Shown: positions 6,097 to 20,538 of the stretch, in pieces
Numbering within the stretch: the stretch's first letter is position 1
Layout: each line of letters opens with the position of its first letter
Origin: Symploca sp. SIO2C1
GTDB lineage: Bacteria; Cyanobacteriota; Cyanobacteriia; Cyanobacteriales; Coleofasciculaceae
Direction: 5' to 3'
NCBI GenBank assembly: GCA_010692635.1
Contig: JAAHGL010000001.1
Location: 1-64,000, forward strand
Length of the DNA stretch: 64,000 nucleotides
Position numbers and translations under genes: made by a program
The notes under the pieces: model-generated
Database searches by the model: none
Seen by the model: the letters and a program-made list of their open reading frames with translations, nothing else
What the model was told of the DNA's origin: nothing

Positions 6097-6696
6097 TTAT
6101 TCAGGATTAGCCTGGTCATTTTTGAGTTGAGCCAGAGCTGAGCGAGCAACTGTCAAACTCAAGCGCACCTGTTCGATCTGAGATAACTCTGTCCATTCAG
6201 CAGTTTTCACCAGCTCTGATCTGCCTCGCATGGCAGAAGCTAAAGGACGAGCAAAGACGAATAAGTCATCTTTTGACCAGTTGGGCAATAATGGCTGGAC
6301 ACATAACACCAGCTGTTCTACCAAAGAGATATTAGAAGAGAAAACCTCTTGGGCTTTACTCGCGATCGCTTCCAGCCGTACCTGAGGTACAACATTAGCA
6401 AATTGCTCTGATAAAGATACTTGCAAAGAGTCAGTTGCTGCTGTTAAGGGTAATACCCAGCATTGTTGCAACTGCTCGAAGAACTCTTGGGATGCACTAG
6501 TAATTTCCTCTTCATCTTGCCAAGGCTCCAGTGAACACCCTTGTTCGAGTTCCTCGAAATAAATTTGTGCCTCTGGTTCAGCTGGATTCCAAGGATAACG
6601 CTCATCCTGGGGCTGTAAAAGTGCCTCTAATAATTCTACTTGTGCTTGAGTTAAAGCATCCTCACAATCTTGGTATTGAATGGGTTGGCTGCTCAT
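6097..6696 (-). CDS. Acidic conserved hypothetical, partner of the CHAT-FHA gene
   Basis: The 199-residue product has no signal peptide or membrane segment. It is strongly acidic in the first third (many Glu, plus EEEI and EELEQG stretches) and helical throughout. No domain is recognised. It lies 178 bases downstream of the CHAT-FHA gene on the same strand with no obvious terminator between them, so co-transcription is likely. Its function could be as a substrate or regulator of the CHAT protein, but nothing in the sequence proves this. Confidence 0.6.
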   Translation of the reverse strand: MSSQPIQYQDCEDALTQAQVELLEALLQPQDERYPWNPAEPEAQIYFEELEQGCSLEPWQDEEEITSASQEFFEQLQQCWVLPLTAATDSLQVSLSEQFANVVPQVRLEAIASKAQEVFSSNISLVEQLVLCVQPLLPNWSKDDLFVFARPLASAMRGRSELVKTAEWTELSQIEQVRLSLTVARSALAQLKNDQANPE

Positions 6697-6874
6697 AGTG
6701 CCTCGTATTTGTTAATTGGCAGATGTAACCTGACATTTATAGCTACACCAGTACCTAAGGGAGTTCCGTAATAGCTCATAAAATACACGATATTTTCACA
6801 TAAGCAAAGCCAAATCAAGTTGCTACAAAACCAGTTCAGTCGCCTAATTCTCCTACTCCTGCACATCTTCAGCC

Positions 6875-8533
6875 TTAAGATTGTGCAGATGGTTGTGAAG
6901 TTTCAATGATAAACTCTAGAGCTTGACCGTGGGTACTGCCAAATTTCAGCTGGACACCGGATTGCAATGGCACTTCCTGATGATGGATCTTTTGCCAATT
7001 TTTGCTGTCGGGACGTAGAATCAGGGTCCCGTAGCGAGAGAAATCCCGCAAAAAGTAAGTGCTACCAGCCTCTTGGGTATTGGAATCATCACGGCAGATA
7101 ATTTCTGCATGTTGTTGAGAAACCCACCGCTCCTTAATCACCAAATCATTTTCCTGGCGGCGTCCCACCCGCATCAAACCACCCCGAATTTGCCAAACCT
7201 GACTAGTTGAGCTAATAGAATGCAAAGAGGCAACTTCCGTCGGAGATCTCACCCAGCTAAGGGACATACTGGGTAGTTCTGTGATACCTTCTTCTATCGG
7301 TTTAATCAATTCCCCTTCAAACTCAGGATGCATATAAAGCACTGGCAAAGTCCAAGCAGGTTGGTTGAACTTGTAAAGTGTCAACAGTTTCTGCCTAGCC
7401 ACCGCTACAGCCTGATCAATTGGCATACGGAGGGCAAGGGCTTGAGCAAGAGCTTGAATAAAACTGAGGGCTTCATGATCCGCAATCGAGTCACGCATCC
7501 CTAAAACAGCAGGAACACCATGATGAATTAGTACCTCAGCTAAGCTGCTACGGGGAACGGTTTGCGAGCCCATCTTCTCAGGTTGAGCACCCCAACAAGC
7601 ATTAAACACTGCCAAAGTCACTTGATTACGCACCAGAACTTGGGCTAGTTCTGTACCGTTTATCGTTGCATCGGAGTGCAAAAACAGCAAACCGCCGTCT
7701 AGTCCTGGTTCACCATGACCGGCATAAAACAGGATATTGTAATCACCAGTTTCCAGAGTCTCGATTAGTTGTGCTGGTGTTGGTTGTAGCAAGGTCTCGA
7801 CATGGCTGGAAACTGGTGTCACAAATACCTCACTACTAATAATATTTGATTGTCCAACAGCTTTGAAAACATTCTCCAGAGCTGCAGCTTCTTCTTCGAG
7901 CTGCAAACAGTTAGTTGCCTGCTCAGGTGTTTGAGCATCCTGTCCCAGTACTAGCAAAATATTTAAGGATTGATGGGAATGTGTAAAGGGCTTGAGGGGG
8001 TCAACAATACTGGTAGTACGGCTAAATAGTAATTGCTGGGAAAGGGAAATTGCTTGTTTACCCACCATGGGTTGCATAATTTCCCAGGGTAGGGGGATTA
8101 AATCTGGATCGCGAATTTCTAGTCGTAAGCGCAGCGGTTTATTTTGTCCCCTGGCAATGCCTCGACTTTCTGCTAGAGCATTTTGAATTGGACCATCAAA
8201 TAACCACGACCATAAATCAATGCCCAAATGCTGCATTAAACGACCACTATAACTAGGTTGTTGACCACGGGAACTAATTTTGTCATCCATGGAGCCTGTC
8301 TGGGAAGATTTAGGAGCATGATGGATGAAAGGGACATGGGGTAGCTCCGTGATGACAAACATCTCCTGCCACGATAACCAAGTCTGAGTCATGGTTTTGG
8401 GGAAGGTAGAGTCATGGTGAACATAGCCTCCTGGATAGGGTGCTTTGAGTACCCAGATGGCAAAATTGTCAGTCCCAGCGGCTGACAAACGCGCGATCGC
8501 TAAACTGAGGCAAGGATTCTCAAGACCAGACAT
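6875..8533 (-). CDS. CHAT caspase-like protease domain fused to a C-terminal FHA domain
   Basis: The 552-residue cytoplasmic protein has two domains. Residues about 130-400 are a CHAT domain of the caspase fold. The expected catalytic dyad is visible: His273 in FYAGHGE after a hydrophobic strand, and Cys313 in NACWGA. Residues about 446-545 are an FHA domain with the phosphothreonine-binding pattern G457-R458...N462-D463...V471-S472..H475-A476 and S499-R-Y-G-T503. CHAT proteases are activated proteases in bacterial signalling and defence, and FHA binds phosphothreonine. The fusion suggests a protease recruited or gated by Ser/Thr phosphorylation. The N-terminal about 100 residues are not recognised. 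Substrate unknown. Confidence 0.85.
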   Translation of the reverse strand: MSGLENPCLSLAIARLSAAGTDNFAIWVLKAPYPGGYVHHDSTFPKTMTQTWLSWQEMFVITELPHVPFIHHAPKSSQTGSMDDKISSRGQQPSYSGRLMQHLGIDLWSWLFDGPIQNALAESRGIARGQNKPLRLRLEIRDPDLIPLPWEIMQPMVGKQAISLSQQLLFSRTTSIVDPLKPFTHSHQSLNILLVLGQDAQTPEQATNCLQLEEEAAALENVFKAVGQSNIISSEVFVTPVSSHVETLLQPTPAQLIETLETGDYNILFYAGHGEPGLDGGLLFLHSDATINGTELAQVLVRNQVTLAVFNACWGAQPEKMGSQTVPRSSLAEVLIHHGVPAVLGMRDSIADHEALSFIQALAQALALRMPIDQAVAVARQKLLTLYKFNQPAWTLPVLYMHPEFEGELIKPIEEGITELPSMSLSWVRSPTEVASLHSISSTSQVWQIRGGLMRVGRRQENDLVIKERWVSQQHAEIICRDDSNTQEAGSTYFLRDFSRYGTLILRPDSKNWQKIHHQEVPLQSGVQLKFGSTHGQALEFIIETSQPSAQS

Positions 8534-9731: not shown

Positions 9732-10631
<900 letters not shown>

Positions 10632-10944: not shown

Positions 10945-11427
10945 TCATGCTTGGGCACTAACTATGAACTGTGATTGTGCTAATTCCAGGCGTCCGCTGC
11001 CTCGATAGGATAGCTCAGGAGCTAGAATTTCTGGTGACTGTGCTAATTCCAGGCGTCCGCTGCCTCGATAGGATAGCTCAGGAGCTAGGATTTCCGGTGA
11101 TTGTGCTAATTCCAGGCGTCCGCTGCCGCGATAGGGTAGCTCAGGAGCTAGGATTTCCGGTGATTGTGCTAATTCCAGGCGTCCGCTGCCTCGATAGGAT
11201 AGCTCAGGAGCTAGGATTTCCGGTGATTGTGCTAATTCCAGGCGTCCGCTGCCGCGATGAGATAACTCAAGAGCTAGGATTTCCGGTGATTGAGCCAATT
11301 CCAGGCGTCCGCTACCAGGATTGGCAAAGTGTAGTTGCAAATTTGAGCCGTAAGCAATAAGCTGGGGATCAATCAATAGAGAGATTGCAAGCAGACCCAC
11401 CAAAGTGATATATCTGAAAATACTCAT
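10945..11427 (-). CDS. patX: PatX-like secreted precursor with a tandem array of RGSGR peptides
   Basis: The 160-residue product has an N-terminal signal-type hydrophobic stretch (ITLVGLLAISLLI, about residues 7-19), then a 21-residue unit repeated about six times to the C-terminus. Each unit holds the pentapeptide RGSGR. There are five perfect copies (residues 58-62, 79-83, 100-104, 121-125, 142-146) and a first degenerate copy, PGSGR, at 37-41. Between pentapeptides the unit reads LELAQSPEILAPELSY with few changes. RGSGR is the active core of PatS and HetN and of PatX, a family linked to hetR in filamentous cyanobacteria and usually reported as a small exported protein with a C-terminal RGSGR. 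Placement directly upstream of hetR supports the call. The repeat array makes it longer than typical PatX as I know it. Confidence 0.85.
   Translation of the reverse strand: MSIFRYITLVGLLAISLLIDPQLIAYGSNLQLHFANPGSGRLELAQSPEILALELSHRGSGRLELAQSPEILAPELSYRGSGRLELAQSPEILAPELPYRGSGRLELAQSPEILAPELSYRGSGRLELAQSPEILAPELSYRGSGRLELAQSQFIVSAQA
10977..11328 (-). repeat. 63-bp coding tandem repeat (RGSGR array)
   Basis: Five nearly identical 63-base units start near 10977, 11040, 11103, 11166 and 11229, followed by a diverged unit from 11292. Each encodes 21 residues, so the frame is kept. Units differ at only a few bases, for example the RGSGR codons alternate CGA/CGC at the first Arg and the unit at 11229 has several changes. 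Such near-identity points to recent expansion or gene conversion, and the copy number is likely to vary between strains. Confidence 0.95.
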
Positions 11428-15390: not shown

Positions 15391-18300
15391 ATGGTTTCAC
15401 TACCAAAGAATCTGCTTCTACCATTGATAGCAGTCCTTTCCTTAGTAGCAACAGGAACAGTCCGTACCGAACCGCTTCAGGCACAATCGATTTCCACTTC
15501 CTTCGACGGTACTAATACCACAGTCACAGTTGATGGCAACGAATATCAGATCACTGGCGGCACTCTCTCGGGAGATGGAACAAATCTGTTTCACAGTTTC
15601 CAAAAATTTGGACTGAGCAACGGCGAGATTGCCAACTTCCTTTCCCAACCGCAAATTCGTAACATTCTCGGTCGGGTGGTAGGTGGAGATGCCTCGGTAA
15701 TTAATGGTCTTATTCAACTAACAGGTGGTAATTCTAACCTGTTTTTACTCAATCCTGCTGGGTTTGTTTTTGGTAATGGTGCCAGTCTTGACTTGCCAGC
15801 TAGTTTTACTACTACCACCGCCAATAGGATTGGTTTTGATGGCGGTTGGTTCAAGGGAGTGGGTACGAATGACTATCAGGCTTTAGTGGGTAACCCCAGC
15901 CGTTTTGCTTTTACCACCAACCAACCGGGCACTATTGTTAATGCAGGTAACCTGGCGGTGAGTGAGGGGGAAAATTTAACTCTCCTAGGTGGCATGGTAA
16001 TCAATACAGGAACCATTTCCACACCAGGGGGCAAGATCATAATCGCTGCTGTGCCAGGGGAAAATGTAGTACGGATCTCTCAAGAAGGGATGGTGCTCAG
16101 TTTAGAGCTACAGCCCAGTGCAGGGATGGATAATGGCAGTTCCTTGACTGATGCTGATGGCTTGTCATCTCCAGATTTACCTCAGTTGCTAACCGGGGGC
16201 AATTTAGCAGATGCAACGGGGATTACTGTTAACCCCAATGGCACAATGTCTTTGACTGGTTCAGGCATCACTCTTCCTACAGAGGTAGGTTCTGCCTATG
16301 TCTCTGGTACAGTTGATACTACTGGAGACATAGGTGGCACGGTGAATGTCCTCGGCGATCGCGTCGGTTTAGTGGGAGCTAATATCAATGCCTCTGGCAC
16401 TAACGGTGGTGGTACGGTATTAATTGGTGGCAATGTTCAGGGTCAAGGTCCAGAGCCGAATGCTTTGAACACATTTATTAGTAGTGACTCAGAGATTAGG
16501 GCAGATGCTACCAGTGTAGGAGATGGTGGGCGCGTCATCGTCTTTGCGGAAGAAACAGCCAATATCCATGGAAATATCAGCGCTCGTGGTGGTGTATCGG
16601 GTGGCGATGGTGGCTTTGTCGAAACCAGTGGATTGCAAAATTTGCAGGTTACCACTACTCCAGATGTCTCTGCTCCAGTAGGTTTGGGGGGTGAATGGTT
16701 AATTGACCCCTATAATGTCGAGATCGTAGCAAATGGTTTAGGAACAAACAATATCAATCCTGGTAATCCCTTTGAGGCAACCGGTGATAATGCAACTGTG
16801 GAAGTTGGTTTAATCATTGCTGCTCTCACTGGTGGTGCAAATGTAACCATAACGACAGGAGCAGGGGGGACTCAAGATGGAAATATTACCTGGAGTGGTG
16901 ACTTAGATTTTGAAGCCGGTACAGGCGAGAATACCCTAACTTTGAGTGCTGCTAACGATATCAATATCAACGCCAATATTTTCGATAGTATACCTTTCAT
17001 CGGTGGAGATGCTCTCAACCTGGTATTGAATGCTGATACTGATAATAATGGTGGCGGCAATATCAATATCAACAATGCCATGATTGATACCAACGGTGGT
17101 TCGATTACAGGGATTGGTAGAGGAAATATCATCCCCAATGATCGTAATGGCATCAATATTGTTGATAGCATCATTAACACCGAAGGCGGTAATCTTGACC
17201 TCACTGGCACAGGAGCAAATGGGGGTGACGGTATTGTTATCAATCAAGGAAGCATGATTGATACTGGAGATGGCAATCTTAACCTTACCGGTACAGGAGG
17301 CGATTTCCGTAATGGTATTTTTATAGATCAAAACAGCAGGCTGAATGCAGATAATGGGGATATTAACCTGACGGGTACCAGTGGTACCAGAGGAGCTGCT
17401 CGTAGTGGAATATTTATCAGAAGATCTAGACTCAGGACTAATGAAAATGGCAATATTAATTTAACTGGTACTAATGTTTCCAATGAAAATAATAGTGCGG
17501 GTATTGCCCTGGCTGCTGACTCCGAGTTAAGATCCCGGGGAACTGGCAATATCACCTTGACGGGCACAACTGGCACTGGAGTAGAGGATAATCGAGGGAT
17601 ATTTCTCAGGGGAGATTCTTCCATCAGAACCCAGGGCAATATCGTACTAGAAGGCACGACTAGTGCAACTGGAATGAACAATGATGGCGTTAGGATCCAA
17701 GACGGTAGCTCTTTGAGAGGCGATACCACCGCAAATATTACTGTGAATGGTACCACTGCTGGCACAACGGATAGTCGAGGGGTAATCCTGACCGACGCTA
17801 GTAGAATCGAGGCAGTGGATGGGGAGATTAATCTAACAGGTACAGCCAACCAAAGTGGAGAAGGAATTCTGTTGGAGGATAGCTTCTTGAACCGCAATGC
17901 AGGGCAAGGTAATGGTGCTATCACCTTAACAGGGGATGAGATTAACATTGACAATGTCACAATCAGGGGAACCAATACTCTTCAGTTACAGCCTGAAAAC
18001 CCGGCTCTGGGAATTACTATCGGTGGCAACATCGACGATGGTAGCTTAAATCTCGACAACGACGAACTAGCTGATTTGCGAGATGGCTTTAGTGAAATTA
18101 TTATCGGACGTAATGATGGCAGTGGAGCAGTTGCGATCGATAACGGTGGTATCGCTTTCACTGATCCTTTAAGGATTCAGTCTCCCAATGGTGCCATTGC
18201 TGTCAATGGGGCAATTACTGGTACAGATAACGCTTCAGTTACCCTCGATAGCAACACCGTTGCCTTAAACGCCAATATCACTACCACCAACCAGTTCATT

Positions 18301-20538
18301 GAGATCAATGGTGCAACCACTCTGGGTAATGACATCACCCTTAATACTGATACTGGAGATGGTGATATCACTTTCAATGGTACAGTTGACGGTACTTTTA
18401 ATTTGACTGCCACAGCGGGTAATGGTGCAATCAACTTCAACGATACTGTGGGCGGTACTACTCCTTTAGATCAATTAACTGCCAATAGTACCGGTACCAC
18501 ACGCTTTGCTGGCAGCGTCAATGCTACTAGCTTGGTTACTGACGCCGGTGGCAATACGGAACTCAACGGTGATGTTACGACTAGTGGTGTTGCCGGTCAA
18601 AGTTATGGCGATGCAGTTACTATTAATGGAGACCTTTCCTTAACAGGTAACGAGCTTGACTTTGCTGCTAATGTCTCAGGTTCTGGCAATTTATCCCTTC
18701 AGCCTTTTACGATTGGCCAGGATATTCAAATCGGTGGTATCGATAGCGGTGACAACAACATTCTGGATTTAACTGGAGCAGAAATTGGCTTGCTGCAAGA
18801 TGGTTTCGCTTCTATCACGATTGGACGTAATGATGGTAGCGGAGCAGTTACGATCGATAACGCAGGTGTAGGTTTCACTGACCCCTTAACTATTCAGTCT
18901 CCCAATGGTGACATTGCCGTGAATGGGACAATTACTGGTACAGGTGATGCTTCAGTGACCCTCAATGGTAACACTATTGGCTTAAACGCCGATATCGCTA
19001 CCGAAAACCAGTTTATCTTGATTGACGGTGCCACTACCCTGGGTAATAACGTCACTCTGGATACAGATACCGGGGACGGTGATCTTACCTTCAATAGTAC
19101 AGTTGACGGTACTTTTGATTTAACCGCTACAGCTGGTAACGGCAACATTAATTTTAACGATGCTTTAGGCAGTAATCAAGATTTGGGTAACCTGAGAGCC
19201 AATAGCACTGGTATCACCCGCTTTGCTCGCACTGTCAATGCTACCAGCCTTACCACTGACATGGGTGGTACTACGGAACTCAACGGTGATGTTATCACTA
19301 GCGGTAACCAGGAATATGGTGACGCAGTGATCATTGAGGAGAACCTTACCCTTAGCAGTACTGGGGATGGAGACTTGAACTTTGAGGATACGGTGGATAG
19401 TGCTACGGGAGAGACGAACGACCTCACCGTCACTACCGGTAATGGTAATATCAGCTTCCAAAGTACTGTAGGCAACAATCAAGCTTTGGGTAACCTGAGA
19501 GCCAATAGCACTGGCATCACCAGCTTTGCTAACACTGTCAATGCCACCAGCCTCACCACTGATATGGGTGGCAGCACGGAAATTAATGGTAATATTACCA
19601 CTAGTGGTGCTGCTGGACAAAGTTATGGTGATGCAGTTACCATTAATGGCGATCGCACTCTAACCGGTGATGAGCTAGATTTTGCCGCTAATGTGTCAGG
19701 TGCTGGCAATTTGTTCCTTCAGCCTTTCACCGAGAGCCAAAATATTCAAATTGGCAGCGCAGATAGCGGCGATACCAGCATTTTGGATTTAACGGAGACA
19801 GAAGTTGGCTTGCTGCAAGATGGCTTTGTCTCTATTACCATTGGACACGCTGATAGTACTGGCATCGTCACACTATCTAACAACGTTGCTGATGATGGTA
19901 CCACTCCCTTCCAAGACCCTGTCAATATTGCTGGTGGCTCAACTTTGGTTGGTCCTAACCGTGATACCACCTGGAGGATCACTGGTTCTAACCAAGGTGA
20001 GCTCGGTGGCTTCTCTAATGGGTTAACCTTTGCCAACATTGAAAACCTCAGCGGTGGTAATGCCAATGACACTTTCGTCTTTAGCGATCGTGCCAGCCTC
20101 GAAGGTATCATTGATGGCGCACCAGGTTTCGACACCCTCGATTACTCTGCTTATACTATTTTTGTCAATGTAGATTTGATCGCTAATACAGCCACTGGTA
20201 CAGGTGGTGTTTTCAATATCGAAAACGTCATACTTCCTGCAGCACAAATACCAGTCGATGACCCGCCAGTAGTTCCTCCCAGTAAACCACCAGTAGTTCC
20301 TCCTAGTAAACCACCAGTAGTTCCTCCCAGTAACCCACCAGTCAGCGTACCTTCTCCAGAAACAATTCCGCCCCCCCAAGAAACGGTTCCAGAAAAACTT
20401 GAGCTAGCCTGCGAGTTGCCGGAAGTACATTTGAATCTGGAAGGATCGTTGAAGGAAGATGAAGTTACTACCACCGAGATAGATCTCCAAAAAGAGGAGT
20501 TTGTCAGGTTCGATGAACACTGTAACCTCCTTCGATGA
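15391..20538 (+). CDS. Two-partner-secretion exoprotein (filamentous haemagglutinin N-terminal domain)
   Basis: The 1715-residue protein has a signal peptide (LLLPLIAVLSLVATGTV) and a TPS haemagglutination-activity domain at about 30-160, with the signature stretches GGNSNLFLLNPAGFVFG and FTTTTANRI. A very long Asn/Gly/Thr-rich beta-helix follows. The middle contains two good copies and one partial copy of a unit of about 230 residues (starts near 865, 1105 and 1440) marked by ITIGRNDGSGAV, QSPNG-IAVNG and TDTGDGD. Near 1630-1660 there are three tandem VVPPSKPP units, then an acidic C-terminal region. TpsA proteins are exported through a TpsB barrel, which is absent here. The likely role is adhesion or contact. 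Base use and repeats look like ongoing internal duplication. Confidence 0.9.
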   Translation: MVSLPKNLLLPLIAVLSLVATGTVRTEPLQAQSISTSFDGTNTTVTVDGNEYQITGGTLSGDGTNLFHSFQKFGLSNGEIANFLSQPQIRNILGRVVGGDASVINGLIQLTGGNSNLFLLNPAGFVFGNGASLDLPASFTTTTANRIGFDGGWFKGVGTNDYQALVGNPSRFAFTTNQPGTIVNAGNLAVSEGENLTLLGGMVINTGTISTPGGKIIIAAVPGENVVRISQEGMVLSLELQPSAGMDNGSSLTDADGLSSPDLPQLLTGGNLADATGITVNPNGTMSLTGSGITLPTEVGSAYVSGTVDTTGDIGGTVNVLGDRVGLVGANINASGTNGGGTVLIGGNVQGQGPEPNALNTFISSDSEIRADATSVGDGGRVIVFAEETANIHGNISARGGVSGGDGGFVETSGLQNLQVTTTPDVSAPVGLGGEWLIDPYNVEIVANGLGTNNINPGNPFEATGDNATVEVGLIIAALTGGANVTITTGAGGTQDGNITWSGDLDFEAGTGENTLTLSAANDININANIFDSIPFIGGDALNLVLNADTDNNGGGNININNAMIDTNGGSITGIGRGNIIPNDRNGINIVDSIINTEGGNLDLTGTGANGGDGIVINQGSMIDTGDGNLNLTGTGGDFRNGIFIDQNSRLNADNGDINLTGTSGTRGAARSGIFIRRSRLRTNENGNINLTGTNVSNENNSAGIALAADSELRSRGTGNITLTGTTGTGVEDNRGIFLRGDSSIRTQGNIVLEGTTSATGMNNDGVRIQDGSSLRGDTTANITVNGTTAGTTDSRGVILTDASRIEAVDGEINLTGTANQSGEGILLEDSFLNRNAGQGNGAITLTGDEINIDNVTIRGTNTLQLQPENPALGITIGGNIDDGSLNLDNDELADLRDGFSEIIIGRNDGSGAVAIDNGGIAFTDPLRIQSPNGAIAVNGAITGTDNASVTLDSNTVALNANITTTNQFIEINGATTLGNDITLNTDTGDGDITFNGTVDGTFNLTATAGNGAINFNDTVGGTTPLDQLTANSTGTTRFAGSVNATSLVTDAGGNTELNGDVTTSGVAGQSYGDAVTINGDLSLTGNELDFAANVSGSGNLSLQPFTIGQDIQIGGIDSGDNNILDLTGAEIGLLQDGFASITIGRNDGSGAVTIDNAGVGFTDPLTIQSPNGDIAVNGTITGTGDASVTLNGNTIGLNADIATENQFILIDGATTLGNNVTLDTDTGDGDLTFNSTVDGTFDLTATAGNGNINFNDALGSNQDLGNLRANSTGITRFARTVNATSLTTDMGGTTELNGDVITSGNQEYGDAVIIEENLTLSSTGDGDLNFEDTVDSATGETNDLTVTTGNGNISFQSTVGNNQALGNLRANSTGITSFANTVNATSLTTDMGGSTEINGNITTSGAAGQSYGDAVTINGDRTLTGDELDFAANVSGAGNLFLQPFTESQNIQIGSADSGDTSILDLTETEVGLLQDGFVSITIGHADSTGIVTLSNNVADDGTTPFQDPVNIAGGSTLVGPNRDTTWRITGSNQGELGGFSNGLTFANIENLSGGNANDTFVFSDRASLEGIIDGAPGFDTLDYSAYTIFVNVDLIANTATGTGGVFNIENVILPAAQIPVDDPPVVPPSKPPVVPPSKPPVVPPSNPPVSVPSPETIPPPQETVPEKLELACELPEVHLNLEGSLKEDEVTTTEIDLQKEEFVRFDEHCNLLR

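Follow-up and report, generated by a model that had tools for sequence, protein, structure and literature searches.

A predicted HetF-type CHAT–FHA protease and its PatU-like acidic partner, a possible second HetF/PatU3 module in filamentous cyanobacteria

Introduction

Separase is a caspase-fold protease that prefers Arg, and Craspase combines a CHAT protease (TPR-CHAT/Csx29) with a dedicated protein substrate, Csx30, within a CRISPR effector complex without an FHA domain. Among described systems, the one that most resembles the gene pair considered here is HetF–PatU3 of Anabaena PCC 7120, a switch through which proteolysis links division with differentiation in bacteria. According to the available sections of the respective papers, PatU3 can be cleaved by the protease activity of HetF (PMC12288457) and interacts with HetZ in Anabaena (PMC7377430).

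Here we describe a locus in a 64-kb window (the whole stretch of DNA that was analysed, 64,000 nucleotides) of Symploca sp. SIO2C1, the source assembly of which is an 8.17-Mb draft in 470 contigs. The original prediction for this locus was a CHAT protease gated by Ser/Thr phosphorylation through a fused FHA domain, with a small acidic protein as its possible substrate or inhibitor. A literature search covering few subscription papers returned no paper with both "CHAT domain" and "FHA domain" and none with "HetZ-related protein", and the CHAT–FHA/partner pair is not mentioned in those parts of the HetF literature, likewise with few subscription papers, that were covered.

Results

The locus encodes a CHAT–FHA protein and a small acidic partner

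The features of the locus are collected in Table 1. As predicted, a CHAT dyad and an FHA domain lie in one protein: the CHAT domain scores 72.9 bits against a Pfam cut-off of 24 and the FHA domain 43.1 bits against 20.7, both domains were found in 30/30 members of alignment A1, and the two dyad residues had been numbered correctly, His273 lying within YAGHG and Cys313 within FNACWG. Both are invariant in 141 distinct full-length CHAT–FHA relatives; loss of the dyad in homologues, named at the outset as an observation that would speak against the prediction, was seen in none of them. The closest named relatives, among the best 80 of 419 stretches encoding a relative, are Symploca MAGs with 87% identity in the CHAT–FHA protein. 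A simple scan for promoters and terminators gave numbers close to those of shuffled sequences.

Table 1. Features of the locus and of its surroundings in the window
Feature	Position	Strand	Remarks
PatU-like acidic partner, 199 aa	6097..6696	(-)	pI 4.11; downstream of CHAT–FHA
Partner Arg157, invariant; predicted cleavage after Arg157	6226..6228	(-)	102/102; aligned with PatU Arg; model
CHAT–FHA protein (HetF-type CHAT + FHA)	6875..8533	(-)	552 aa
FHA domain, residues 455-532, with R458 and S472 but Tyr501 in place of the NG Asn	6938..7171	(-)	Pfam FHA E 5.9e-11
CHAT (caspase-fold) domain, residues 104-389	7367..8224	(-)	Pfam PF12770 E 3.9e-20; AF2 model
Predicted catalytic Cys313	7595..7597	(-)	141/141 relatives; aligned with HetF Cys
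Predicted catalytic His273	7715..7717	(-)	141/141 relatives; aligned with HetF His
HetR	9732-10631	(-)	NCBIfam NF009718 562.9 bits, cut-off 489
Multi-RGSGR PatX-like small protein	10945-11427	(-)	just upstream of HetR
Filamentous-haemagglutinin-like secreted protein	15391-20538	(+)	1715 aa; many internal repeats (by eye)

The best of five AF2 models of CHAT–FHA has a mean pLDDT of 78.4 (58–65 for the remaining four). Searched with Foldseek, it placed Csx29/TPR-CHAT, a CHAT protease as well, at the top and also returned SAVED-CHAT, FHA structures and separase (best E 1.1e-9), the last being a eukaryotic and far larger protein that did not appear when PDB chains were searched by sequence (E ≤ 1). 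Such a similarity of fold to Csx29/TPR-CHAT and SAVED-CHAT would fit an antiviral CHAT effector encoded with its substrate or immunity protein, as in Craspase or SAVED-CHAT systems. However, neither protein of the pair matches PADLOC at E ≤ 1, and there is one full-length CHAT–FHA match per genome, with a lineage-wide distribution that largely follows HetR-bearing lineages; we rejected an anti-phage effector on these grounds and consider an antiviral role very improbable.

HetR is encoded 1.2 kb upstream of CHAT–FHA, and a DUF92 gene of the opposite strand separates the two. The N-terminus of the PatX-like protein looks signal-like by eye, and its tandem repeats contain five RGSGR and six GSGR motifs; the counterparts of this protein in two other Symploca loci (L071 and L072) have four RGSGR each. 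RGSGR is a HetR-inhibiting motif (available parts of PMC7761841), and we found no mention of a multi-copy PatX in the accessible portions of PMC12756182 and PMC7761841. A conserved link between CHAT–FHA and hetR was rejected, as a HetR match occurs in the flank (≤5 kb, often less) of 2/80 named loci (best 80 of 419), namely the same L071 and L072.

By profile score, HetF is closest to the protease among the CHAT proteins scored

Judged by profile score, no other CHAT protein among those scored comes near HetF in similarity to CHAT–FHA: nine HetF ORFs gave 176–212 bits with the CHAT–FHA profile, compared with 65 bits for the best other CHAT protein of its own genome. The own-genome proteins scored came from 30 loci and 19 further stretches, out of 74 CHAT-domain matches, a very large expansion of the family. 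Forty-five positions, including the His and the Cys, are common to 16 CHAT–FHA and 9 HetF rows at ≥95%, and the NCBIfam HetF model NF045509 matches CHAT–FHA with an E of 1.2e-46 at positions 72–388 of 836. CHAT–FHA is not a HetF equivalog, given that this match is partial and reaches 159.5 bits against a cut-off of 1200; the source genome has a separate full-length HetF, which at 893.3 bits is itself below that cut-off. In a tree of 39 CHAT domains (15 CHAT–FHA, 9 HetF and 15 others), CHAT–FHA and HetF each form a single clade (98/98 and 98/97, respectively); they are not recovered as sisters, and CHAT–FHA groups with 10 long-branched other CHATs (88/81).

CHAT–FHA is probably a soluble HetF-type CHAT cysteine protease, its proteolysis being predicted. 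Unlike HetF, which has TPR and transmembrane parts (available sections of PMC8406250), it carries an FHA domain and has neither a TPR in Pfam nor a strongly hydrophobic segment (the 19-residue hydropathy maximum is 1.17).

The partner is related to PatU and keeps an aligned Arg

The small acidic ORF downstream was described in the original prediction as an unknown, and in Pfam, NCBIfam and PADLOC no family was found below E 0.01; across 37 homologues the pI is 4.05–4.85. R150 and R157 are invariant in 102/102 distinct rows, which also share a YPWN motif near the N-terminus (Y34 in 101, P35 in 99, W36 in 97 and N37 in 93). In the structural model (mean pLDDT 77.9), Arg157 is placed in a coil following the conserved helix 142–154, with a block confidence of 71–75, and insertions just after Arg157 in the alignment indicate a loop of variable length; a fold search of the PDB with this model gave no match at E ≤ 0.001. 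By hydropathy the partner has no strongly hydrophobic stretch. It was set apart by description from CyDiv (All2320, 197 aa), which carries a transmembrane segment close to the C-terminus (available parts of PMC4748335), and identity with CyDiv was rejected. Anabaena all0215 is a candidate orthologue, since its length fits (212 aa in the tables available from PMC2821919 and PMC2823733).

In two genomes, a profile of the partner (n = 38) weakly picked up a second ORF as well (E 6.7e-4 and 0.006). In the first of these, the ORF adjoins HetZ (NCBIfam NF037963, 656 bits, cut-off 550), and because PatU is known to lie beside hetZ (available parts of PMC7377430 and PMC2821919), we identified the second ORF as PatU. 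In the source genome, the partner is not beside hetZ; a different contig (G000:C146) carries PatU and a HetZ-type match. The sets were enlarged to 150 partner and 63 PatU ORFs, a few loci being present twice (103 and 60 without duplicates). The partner profile then gave 24 matches at E ≤ 0.01 among 2404 other ORFs, all of them PatU (60/77 at E ≤ 10), and the PatU profile gave 48 among 2491 other ORFs, all of them partner (146/157 at E ≤ 10). With the larger alignments, hhalign joined the two families over 95 columns with a probability of 83.9 and an E of 7.8e-6, compared with a weak match (13.9 and 0.002) from the earlier, smaller ones. These comparisons make the partner a distant paralogue of PatU, the protein of the HetZ locus, a relationship that is new here and in which homology is limited to the C-terminal core of ~95 residues.

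The hhalign consensus pairs Arg157, in the AMR of the partner, with the Arg of the YRS motif of PatU. The aligned PatU column is Arg in 57/60 rows, and in the remaining three an Arg follows two or four residues later. Counted from a GTG start, the aligned Arg of 18 split PatU3 ORFs, several of which have other possible starts, is residue 117 in 17 and residue 118 in one. HetF reportedly cuts PatU3 after Arg117, in the work of Xing et al. 2022 (PNAS).

Since the partner is a PatU paralogue and HetF cleaves PatU3 (PMC12288457, in the sections available), the partner as a substrate gains indirect support; with HetF as the closest of the CHAT proteins scored, the pair looks like a second HetF/PatU3 module. 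Because both members are paralogous to HetF/PatU3, the most likely action of CHAT–FHA is a cut in the partner after Arg157. Alternatively, the partner may, in the manner of securin, inhibit CHAT–FHA or serve as its pseudosubstrate, or it may be an adaptor, with Arg157 kept for binding and not for cutting. The near-obligate pairing and adjacency of the two genes (see below) fit an inhibitor equally well, as do the acidity of the partner and the presence of separase and Csx29-type folds among the closest structures to the protease. We nevertheless consider this alternative unlikely, as HetF cleaves the paralogous PatU3 and Arg157 precedes a variable-length loop, as expected for a cut site.

CHAT–FHA and the partner are inherited together

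We surveyed 292 genomes sampled from the phylum. CHAT–FHA was found in 68/292, a count that leaves out four genomes with a HetF match only and includes one (G099) in which the match ends before the FHA domain, and the partner in 70/292. HetR_C was found in 64/292, PatU in 62/292 and CHAT-bearing HetF (E ≤ 1e-60) also in 62/292, after G007, matched in the C-terminal part only, had been dropped. CHAT–FHA and the partner occur together in 67 genomes, CHAT–FHA alone in 1, the partner alone in 3 and neither in 221, so that 67/68 CHAT–FHA genomes carry the partner and 67/71 genomes with either have both. The corresponding figures for PatU and HetF are both in 61/63 genomes, with 1 and 1 alone. Cross pairs (CHAT–FHA or partner with PatU or HetF) are found in 58–59 of 72–73 genomes, giving a Jaccard index of 0.81 compared with 0.94 for CHAT–FHA/partner and 0.97 for PatU/HetF, the cognate pairs. 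In the 76 genomes that have at least one of five genes (CHAT–FHA, partner, HetR, PatU and HetF), the pairing p values are 1.8e-5 for CHAT–FHA/partner, 1.3e-12 for PatU/HetF, 0.6 for CHAT–FHA/HetR and 0.03–0.07 for the four cross pairs, all of them only descriptive because related genomes are not independent. Of these five genes, CHAT–FHA and the partner are the only ones present in eight genomes, and HetR, PatU and HetF the only ones in three. One of the three genomes with a partner but no detected CHAT–FHA, G007, still has the Arg (L060). In that genome, neither HetR nor PatU was detected, and G007:C28:53502-54332 encodes the C-terminal half of HetF without a CHAT match (525-aa frame).

The genes are also neighbours. 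In the named loci (the best 80 of 419 stretches encoding a CHAT–FHA relative), the partner lies beside CHAT–FHA in 65/80: directly downstream on the same strand in 61, 1.3 kb downstream in one and upstream in three (Laspinema). Another 11/80, each with ≥1.7 kb of sequence downstream, showed no partner, and the 4 others have <250 bp downstream. Conservation of the acidic partner next to CHAT–FHA, on which the original prediction depended, was thereby upheld. The 74 CHAT matches of the source genome would be compatible with an ordinary paralogue of this large family that stands beside an unrelated small gene; as such an arrangement is contradicted by the adjacency in 65/80 of these loci and the co-occurrence in 67/68 genomes, we give it hardly any credence.

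Like HetF–PatU3, the pair combines a HetF-type CHAT domain with aligned His and Cys, a PatU-homologous second protein with a conserved Arg before a variable loop, and an occurrence mainly in HetR-bearing genomes. In contrast to HetF–PatU3, its genes are mostly adjacent, and it occurs also in genomes without HetR, HetZ and PatU. Among the best 80 of 419, the named holders are mostly of filamentous genera, with Aphanothece, Hydrococcus and Cyanosarcina MAGs as exceptions.

The FHA domain keeps only part of the expected binding residues

The FHA domain had been called well formed. This is true of G457 (141/141), R458 (130/141), S472 (140/141) and H475 (139/141) in the distinct full-length rows, but not of position 501, where the NG motif normally has its Asn and which is Y in 98, F in 22, N in 13, W in 7 and C in 1, and is thus aromatic (Y/F/W) in 127/141. 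In FHA domains, the Arg, Ser and Asn are the phosphothreonine- and peptide-binding residues. With Arg and Ser mostly kept and Asn mostly replaced, this domain may or may not read phosphothreonine. The expectation of co-occurring Ser/Thr kinases held for the genome, which has 75 Pkinase matches, but not for the window, which has none, so that kinases are available, yet unlinked to CHAT–FHA.

The FHA domain may be only a structural or localisation module that reads no phosphothreonine, the protease being controlled otherwise. The aromatic replacement of the peptide-binding Asn, the replacement of R458 in 11/141 and the lack of a kinase match in the window favour this, whereas the retention of R458 and S472 in nearly all rows and the match of the model to EmbR, which was solved with a phosphopeptide (2ff4), do not. 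We regard a purely structural or localising role as a serious contender, if somewhat the weaker one.

HetZ-related protein 2 tracks the pair in 36 chosen genomes

We searched the HetZ_related model in 36 genomes chosen so as to include discordant ones. A HetZ-related protein 2 match (54–84 bits) was present in 24/25 of those with CHAT–FHA or the partner, the exception being G187, which has both, and in 0/11 of those without. Nine of the 24 proteins were compared with NF037965, and every one exceeded its cut-off (400 bits). High-scoring HetZ/HetZ-related matches are missing in 11/25, including all eight genomes with CHAT–FHA and the partner alone.

Discussion

The reading that we favour, with a probability of about 0.6, is that CHAT–FHA cuts the PatU-like partner after Arg157, relieving the inhibition of a target, of which HetZ-related protein 2 is the likeliest. 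The FHA domain would dock on a partner, possibly a phosphoprotein, and so place or license the protease; the CHAT domain would then cut the PatU-like protein after Arg157, and the cut would relieve its inhibition of HetZ-related protein 2 (most likely) or of the divisome. This scheme would copy the logic in which HetF inhibits PatU3 and PatU3 inhibits HetZ or the divisome. We infer that cleavage occurs and where, as well as the ligand of the FHA domain, HetZ-related protein 2 as the target and a role in division or filament development.

More tentatively, there may be two parallel circuits, HetF/PatU/HetZ with HetR, and CHAT–FHA/PatU-like/HetZ-related protein 2 without a need of HetR, in the second of which a phospho-signal read by the FHA domain would license the Arg157 cut and free a HetZ-like transcription factor; we think this possible, though doubtful in its entirety. 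If true, the second circuit could be a more general, pre-heterocyst control of division or filament development.

Filamentous cyanobacteria appear to have a second, differently wired copy of the protease–target pair that links division to specialisation, the cutting in this copy being predicted. Duplication and rewiring of such a circuit in multicellular bacteria would be shown by a paralogous pair that is inherited separately, may contain a phospho-reader domain and has a HetZ-like candidate target to itself.
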